Shown one piece after another: positions 6,669-14,893 of a DNA stretch of 64,000 bases; the first letter of the stretch is position 1, and every line of letters begins with the position of its first letter. The DNA comes from a virus. Location: positions 1 through 64,000 of IMG/VR virus record IMGVR_UViG_3300046171_000227, one strand, 5' to 3'. The notes under the pieces were generated by a model. That model made no database searches. It worked only from the letters and a program-made list of their open reading frames with translations, and was not told where the DNA came from. Made by a program: the position numbers and the translations under genes.

Positions 6669-6823
6669 TCAAATACTTTCCATTTTGGTGTGCCTAGAGA
6701 TTTTAGAAAAACCCACTTAGCATATGTAACACCACGATATGTCAAAAGTCTAAAGACTTTATCTGGATCATGTACCTCTGGATTGTATTCTGGAAGATCA
6801 TATTCTAATTTGATCTTCAGCAT
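6665..6823 (-). CDS. Small conserved protein, 52 aa
   Basis: Starts MLKIKLEYDLPEYNPEVHD and ends KSLGTPKWKVFD. Preceded by a strong GAGGAGG ribosome site. Its stop codon lies within the -35 box of the next promoter. Found among the short conserved ORFs typical of cyanomyoviruses; function unknown. Confidence 0.65.
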   Translation of the reverse strand: MLKIKLEYDLPEYNPEVHDPDKVFRLLTYRGVTYAKWVFLKSLGTPKWKVFD

Positions 6824-7138: not shown

Positions 7139-7203
7139 ACCCCGTAGGGTGATCCGAGTTCCCGTTCCTTCAGTCGTTTGCGTCCGTCAAAGACGGATGA
7201 ACG
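7139..7203 (-). promoter_or_regulatory. Glutamine riboswitch (Downstream-peptide/glnA type) plus UNCG hairpin
   Basis: Reading the minus strand: outer stem CGTTC (7199-7203) pairs with GAACG (7163-7167); inner stem CCGTC pairs with GACGG around a TTT loop; the conserved CTGAAG precedes the closing strand. This is the architecture of glnA and Downstream-peptide RNAs, which bind L-glutamine. Further down, ACCC-TACG-GGGT (7139-7150) forms a C(UACG)G tetraloop hairpin before the ribosome site of the DUF4278-like ORF. The pairings are visible; ligand specificity follows from the family. Confidence 0.75.
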
Positions 7204-7228
7204 CTCCGTTCCGCGACTTACTTGCGTC

Positions 7229-7429: not shown

Positions 7430-7447
7430 GAGATGAACGACAAGTGT

Positions 7448-7476
7448 ATACTACACTATCAATTCTATTTAGTCAA
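7448..7476 (-). promoter_or_regulatory. Probable dual promoter (sigma70 with late box in spacer)
   Basis: TTGACT (7471-7476), 17 bp, TAGTAT (7448-7453). The spacer contains CTAAATA (7466-7472), the late-promoter motif of cyanomyoviruses. The ATG of the 66-aa ORF is 19 bp beyond the -10. Weaker -10 match than at the other sites. Confidence 0.5.
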
Positions 7477-14839: not shown

Positions 14840-14893
14840 GGTTTGTAGAGAGTGATACAACTTTACAGAAATTAACATTCTGTGTCGTTGATG

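Follow-up and report, generated by a model that had tools for sequence, protein, structure and literature searches.

We found that a minus-strand RNA element at positions 7439–7163 of the window (the whole 64,000-nt stretch of viral DNA analysed here, positions 1 to 64,000 of IMG/VR record IMGVR_UViG_3300046171_000227) is probably a glnA (RF01739)-type glutamine riboswitch of a new architecture, which carries a nested gene and would set two genes in opposite directions; we give this reading a probability of about 0.6. The predicted fold consists of P1, P2, a loop E formed by AGUA and GAA, and P3, with a circularly permuted second half (P1′ and P2′) lying in the P3 loop. Riboswitches are usually treated as non-coding leaders, and this phage RNA would join coding and sensing, such that a start codon is part of the sensor. 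The RNA is widespread in marine cyanobacterial viruses and predicts a reciprocal two-gene switch that can be tested with reporters. By combining NtcA-type promoters with glutamine, it may offer cyanophages a route for reading host nitrogen status, the sensing of which the earlier note had suggested.

A probable composite aptamer on the minus strand

The earlier note had placed a glutamine-type riboswitch at 7203–7139, and the motifs it named are present on the minus strand: CGTTC (7203–7199), TCCGTC/GACGGA (7197–7183), CTGAAG (7173–7168) and GAACG (7167–7163). Read as RNA, CGUUC is followed by the UCCGUC/GACGGA hairpin, by CGCAAACGACUGAAGGAACGG and by a small hairpin with a UACG loop; a 54-amino-acid ORF comes next. 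The aptamer type was upheld, as was its place before a DUF4278-like gene in a T4-like cyanophage, but the assigned extent and P1 pairing were not. The 5′ end lies ~235 nt further upstream, at 7439; GAACG at 7167–7163 is partnered by CGTTC at 7439–7435 and not by the CGTTC at 7203, whose own most likely partner is GAACG at 7211–7207. The earlier note had missed the composite topology, the upstream half with a gene nested in its P2, and the promoter located at the 5′ end of the aptamer.

From its 5′ end, the composite comprises the outer P1 strand CGUUC (7439–7435), the 5′ strand of outer P2 (UCUCAUG, 7433–7427), which contains the start codon of a nested ORF, the P2 3′ strand (CAUGAGA, 7233–7227), which contains the stop codon UGA, the outer core CGCAAGUA (7226–7219) with the loop E strand AGUA (7222–7219), and the P3 5′ strand AGUCG (7218–7214). 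The permuted half follows as a P1′ hairpin, GAACG-GAG-CGUUC (7211–7199), which holds a GGAG, and the inner P2′ hairpin, UCCGUC-UUU-GACGGA (7197–7183), which is short in the window and ORF-bearing in most relatives. The P3 3′ strand CGACU (7176–7172) pairs with AGUCG, CUGAAG (7173–7168) supplies the loop E strand GAA (7171–7169) and is the alternative partner of a CUUCAG ahead of the Shine-Dalgarno sequence, and GAACG (7167–7163) closes outer P1. The upstream half reads CGUUCAUCUCAUG (7439–7427), a loop that is a 66-amino-acid ORF, and CAUGAGACGCAAGUAAGUCGCGGAACGG (7233–7206).

Scanning 601 bases against all Rfam families with cmscan, we recovered minus-strand matches to both families that the earlier note had named, although each scored under its curated cut-off: RF01739 with 30.1 bits (cut-off 35, E = 1.7 × 10−4) and RF01704 with 29.2 bits (cut-off 33, E = 3.3 × 10−5). 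We consider both matches real, given their small E-values; positions 7203–7159 fall below the cut-offs because they are just the inner and 3′ part of the composite at 7439–7163. Each of the full 23-nt cores had a single occurrence in the window, and none of 100 shuffles contained one. A candidate freshwater-2 RNA at 7152–7100 was rejected as a chance match (17 bits against a cut-off of 49.9).

When phages were searched by BLAST, two conserved query pieces were matched that lay ~200 nt apart in many cyanophages, and the cyanophage loci that we read contained two half-aptamers, each with CGUUCA, P2, CGCA, the core and GAACG. RNAalifold, applied to 38 ORF-free composites, chose unprompted the outer P1 (first CGUUC with last GAACG) together with P1′ (first GAACG with second CGUUC). 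Paired cells in the composite alignment amounted to 96%, two-sided changes numbered 74 compared to 15.5 in shuffles, P1 was invariant, and two-sided changes occurred at all four P2 pairs. Compensatory changes among homologues, on which the earlier note had staked its claim, were present in P2, P3, P2′ and P1′. Loop E was split between the halves, with AGUA in the first 3′ core and GAA in the second, and the strand following AGUA and the one preceding GAA were complementary and covarying, a pairing reached by 0 of 5000 permutations. P3 pair variants comprised AGUCG/CGACU, AUUCG/CGAAU, AGUCA/UGACU and GGACGG/CCGCCC, as well as AGCCGACU/AGCCGACU, AGCCGACA/UGCCGACU and AGCCAACU/AGCUGACU.

The ORF-free phage ACG-2014f matched RF01739 above the cut-off (41.1 bits against 35), its inner module being accommodated as an insert of 41 nt in P3. 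The same AGUA-AGAAG/CUUCU-GAA layout, minus the insert, was seen in a cyanobacterial glnA aptamer that precedes an IF7-like gene. The core was CGCAAGUA in 38 of 38 aligned composites compared to CGGAAGUA in glnA, one base off the Rfam consensus, and the inner half was without loop E; because of these two features, affinity or specificity may differ. In the window, the composite fold was predicted to be 7.5 kcal/mol worse than an alternative fold without ligand.

Genes nested in the P2 loops

The outer P2 loop of the window holds the nested 66-amino-acid ORF (7429–7229, minus strand; AUG 7429–7427, UGA 7231–7229), which belongs to phrog_6471 and has two invariant cysteines. In many phages, at least one of the two halves has in its P2 loop an ORF that starts directly after CGUUCAUCCN and whose end lies within the core or shortly ahead of it; in most sampled phages a small gene replaces one or both P2 loops, with its AUG in or at the P2 5′ strand and its stop codon in the P2 3′ strand or the core. 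Three pattern scans of IMG/VR, together with eight phage records, supplied 234 distinct halves with loops of 120–299 nt. Among the loci listed, an ATG-initiated ORF was found in 232 of the 234 distinct long-loop halves, with the ATG at offset +10 in 205, and the remaining two were mis-paired halves of CAACG/CGUUG variants and not real exceptions. At least one ORF was present in 184 of 229 half pairs among the loci listed, a class frequency that is not a population estimate, as up to 120 loci were drawn from each scan and one pattern required a short loop. Loop lengths were bimodal (short 11–47, long 138–234), 160 of 162 inner loops with a start at +10 had lengths that were multiples of 3, and inner ORFs stopped mostly at a TGA or TAA inside the core.

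Judged by their codons, the nested ORFs are under purifying selection (dN/dS 0.11–0.34), and we take them to be translated. The nested proteins tested fell into three PHROG families with no function assigned, phrog_6471 at the outer site and phrog_504 and phrog_13397 at the inner site. They have a hydrophobic N-terminus ahead of the two invariant cysteines, around which the outer and inner families align at 96.7% probability (hhalign), and by this profile comparison the families are homologous. Predicted folds were helical, and searches with the predicted structures returned no significant PDB match for either nested protein. The families have moved between outer and inner sites, and on the tree ORFs were gained or lost a minimum of 17 and 31 times. 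ACG-2014f encodes a paralogue of the nested two-cysteine protein as a separate gene away from the aptamer, preceded by an ordinary Shine-Dalgarno sequence (KJ019085, 176267–176398). In two further phages, the P1′ loop of the composite is interrupted, between GAACGGAG and CGTTC, by a homing endonuclease gene (S-H68, 1526–2115, GIY-YIG-like; Sf-CH5, 842–1414, annotated as such).

We also assessed whether P2 closes around the inserted gene. Among outer ORF copies, P2 positions 3 and 4 covaried (C-G, U-A, A-U, G-U) and 26 of 34 distinct cases had all of the AUG paired in register. Inner copies almost always kept the first four P2 pairs, with the A of the AUG paired in 96 of 110 and the whole AUG in just 28 of 110. 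Native ORFs closed P2 better than the mean of synonymous-codon shuffles (outer 52 of 55, inner 53 of 60; P about 1 × 10−8, a value that overstates independence since the sequences are related). P2 of the window was predicted to be closed with a probability of 0.97 even without ligand, such that glutamine may change expression of the nested gene little.

The GGAG in the P1′ loop was found in 84–100% of copies with an inner ORF and in 2–7% of those without, an association that on the tree reflected few independent changes (median P = 0.0625). In relatives, it is the Shine-Dalgarno-like site of the inner nested ORF. The window is one of the few copies with GGAG but without an inner ORF, which suggests that the inner ORF was lost recently and that this GGAG is probably a relic.

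Promoter, likely expression platform and proposed control

A sigma-70-type promoter, TTGACT-17-TAGTAT, lies at 7476–7448 on the minus strand, with its −10 element inside the palindrome GTGTAGTATACAC (7456–7444); a second palindrome, GTGTTGATACCAACAC (7494–7479), is located upstream of the −35 element, near the position of the NtcA-type box in relatives. Most relatives have TTGACA-17-TATAAT-type promoters ending 7–8 nt before CGTTC, which predicts that the mRNA starts at the aptamer and that the outer AUG is ~10 nt from the 5′ end. NtcA sites are known in cyanophages (PMC3037559, the source of our consensus), and an NtcA-type box, GTAN8TAC, was present upstream in 117 of 205 distinct relatives compared to 0.2% in control DNA. 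The window has the promoter and palindromes and no exact GTAN8TAC match upstream of the start site. The −10 element was within a palindrome in 178 of 205 copies compared to 32 of 205 shuffles; the sequence of this palindrome varies between phages (GGTCTATAATAGACC, GGGTATAATACCC, TATGGTATAATTACCATA).

The presumed regulated gene downstream encodes the 54-amino-acid protein (7102–6938, minus strand), which the earlier note had rightly described as DUF4278-like. It matched phrog_545 over its full length (E = 7.9 × 10−27) and DUF4278 (PF14105) at 21.2 bits, below the gathering cut-off of 25.3 (E = 3.9 × 10−4), and from these profile matches we regard it as a distant DUF4278 relative. A second small protein, assigned to phrog_6192 and with a weak match to the DUF4278 tail, is encoded after it at 6823–6665 on the same strand. 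Ahead of the 54-amino-acid gene, CUUCAGGAG (7118–7110) contains an anti-core CUUCAG (7118–7113) that overlaps the Shine-Dalgarno sequence AGGAG (7114–7110). Across copies, the core CU[G/A]AAG was complementary to a CUU[C/U]AG overlapping the AGGAG of the DUF4278 gene. At recognised CUUNAG-type sites, all 42 UAAAGG cores faced CUUUAG, and UGAAGG cores faced C or U. With core and anti-core treated as traits on the tree, 7.4 pairs agreed on average and 0 disagreed (median P = 0.016). In the window, the CUGAAG:CUUCAG helix had a predicted probability of 0.98 without ligand, and it must open for the composite to form. The earlier note had suggested that the UACG hairpin may act in the expression platform; this hairpin is present (ACCC-UACG-GGGU, 7150–7139), but it is an optional addition to the loop that the CUGAAG:CUUCAG helix encloses, most relatives are without it, and its role as the essential platform was not upheld; the helix itself is the likely platform. 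Pairing of the core with CUU[C/U]AG at the Shine-Dalgarno sequence implies an ON switch, a direction that would fit cyanobacterial glutamine riboswitches, which are ON switches with DUF4278 or GS-inactivating-factor genes downstream (PMC6316151).

We propose that glutamine, the presumed ligand, would stabilise P1, loop E and P3 and thereby keep CUGAAG from CUUCAG. With CUUCAG unpaired, the Shine-Dalgarno sequence of the DUF4278-like gene would be free and the downstream gene ON. The ligand-bound fold would also close P2, hiding the nested start codon and turning the nested gene OFF, and with little glutamine the nested gene would be translated and the aptamer open. A ribosome that starts on the nested gene before the P2 3′ strand has been made would translate it and keep the aptamer open. 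The net outcome would be a single RNA that controls two genes in opposite directions. The fullest form of this proposal, an aptamer that encloses its own genes within a double-headed RNA and places two phage proteins under reciprocal, ribosome-sensitive control by host glutamine, we advance tentatively, at somewhat short of an even chance; its double-headed part refers to two pseudo-symmetric three-way junctions that share P3 and possibly hold two ligand sites.

Several alternatives bear on the architecture and the ligand. Two independent tandem glutamine aptamers, in which each CGUUC pairs with the next GAACG and one carries a P2 ORF, would make the 65-nt element of the earlier note the second of the pair. 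Such an arrangement agrees with the sub-threshold Rfam match of each half alone and with reports of tandem glnA RNAs (PMC2864571), but the P3 strands covary between the halves, each half is without one loop E strand, RNAalifold favours the composite, and at three loci with CAACG-(GAG or GUUC)-CGUUG P1′ is kept and both P1 pairings of the tandem model are broken. We consider tandem aptamers quite unlikely, and rejected them as the main model on the basis of covariation in P3 and of the double changes that give CAACG/CGUUG. It is likewise improbable, though the core CGCA in place of CGGA and the lack of loop E in the inner half would be in its favour, that the aptamer scaffold has been kept to sense another ligand or none, as loop E, P1 and the GAAGGAACG segment are retained and a DUF4278-like gene downstream is the usual partner of glutamine riboswitches (PMC6316151).

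Other explanations accept the composite and concern the role of the nested genes. The nested ORF could act as a leader peptide, with ribosome position deciding whether P2 and the aptamer form, regulation being ribosome-coupled and the protein incidental. The fixed places of the stop codons, in P2 or the core, and a start codon just ~10 nt from the predicted 5′ end are in line with this, whereas purifying selection along the ORF, the invariant cysteine pair, the existence of several families and the stand-alone paralogue with its ordinary Shine-Dalgarno sequence argue for a functional protein, and we regard an incidental protein as rather unlikely. We also doubt that the ORFs are cassettes at a harmless insertion site in the P2 loop, around which the aptamer folds with no cross-regulation. 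Their repeated gain and loss on the tree, the movement of families between both sites and the homing endonucleases in the P1′ loop would all be expected of cassettes, but the start codon lies in register inside P2, synonymous sites show selection for P2 closure, and GGAG is tied to inner ORFs.

Relation to known RNAs and distribution

The composite shares with the glnA motif (RF01739) P1 CGUUC/GAACG, P2, loop E AGUA/GAA, P3 and GAAGGAACG, but its P3 carries the permuted second half, its P2 loops hold genes, and its core is CGCAAGUA and not CGGAAGUA. With the Downstream-peptide motif (RF01704, type 2) it has in common CGUUCA, CGCA, GGAACGGG, a downstream DUF4278 gene and an association with marine picocyanobacteria. 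In contrast to RF01704, loop E is glnA-like, and the 3′ hairpin with GGAACGG in its loop does not form in the composite, for which the alignments show non-standard pairs at several of its positions. An ORF in a peripheral loop that leaves the RNA core intact is also known from group I introns carrying homing endonuclease genes, but here the start codon belongs to one of the core helices of the aptamer, in a cis-regulatory RNA located at the mRNA 5′ end. Phage-borne glnA-type glutamine riboswitches have been reported in cyanophage S-CREM1 (PMC9964418) and methylophage Melnitz (PMC9004378), although neither report describes nested genes or the composite topology, and in the open-licence papers searched we found no account of a riboswitch aptamer with genes nested inside it.

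An origin of the composite in host genomes was rejected: the composite core (21 nt, up to 2 mismatches) was absent from 386 cyanobacterial genomes, and the nested proteins were not found in host genomes by a protein profile that recovers the phage copies. Our composite model gave only weak, short matches in cyanobacterial genomes, and the one examined was a plain glnA aptamer. A looser pattern, GGAACGG-N(1-5)-CGTTCAYCC, was discarded, as it returned mostly chance matches in unrelated genomes. RNA surveys overlook such elements because the ORF splits the covariance match. An Rfam-based survey of S-SCSM1 listed only PhotoRC-II and wcaG (PMC9602691), and we found an ORF-split composite glutamine RNA at 1460–1760 in this phage. 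The window itself contains a PhotoRC-II RNA at 14865–14770 on the minus strand (71.5 bits, above the Rfam cut-off).
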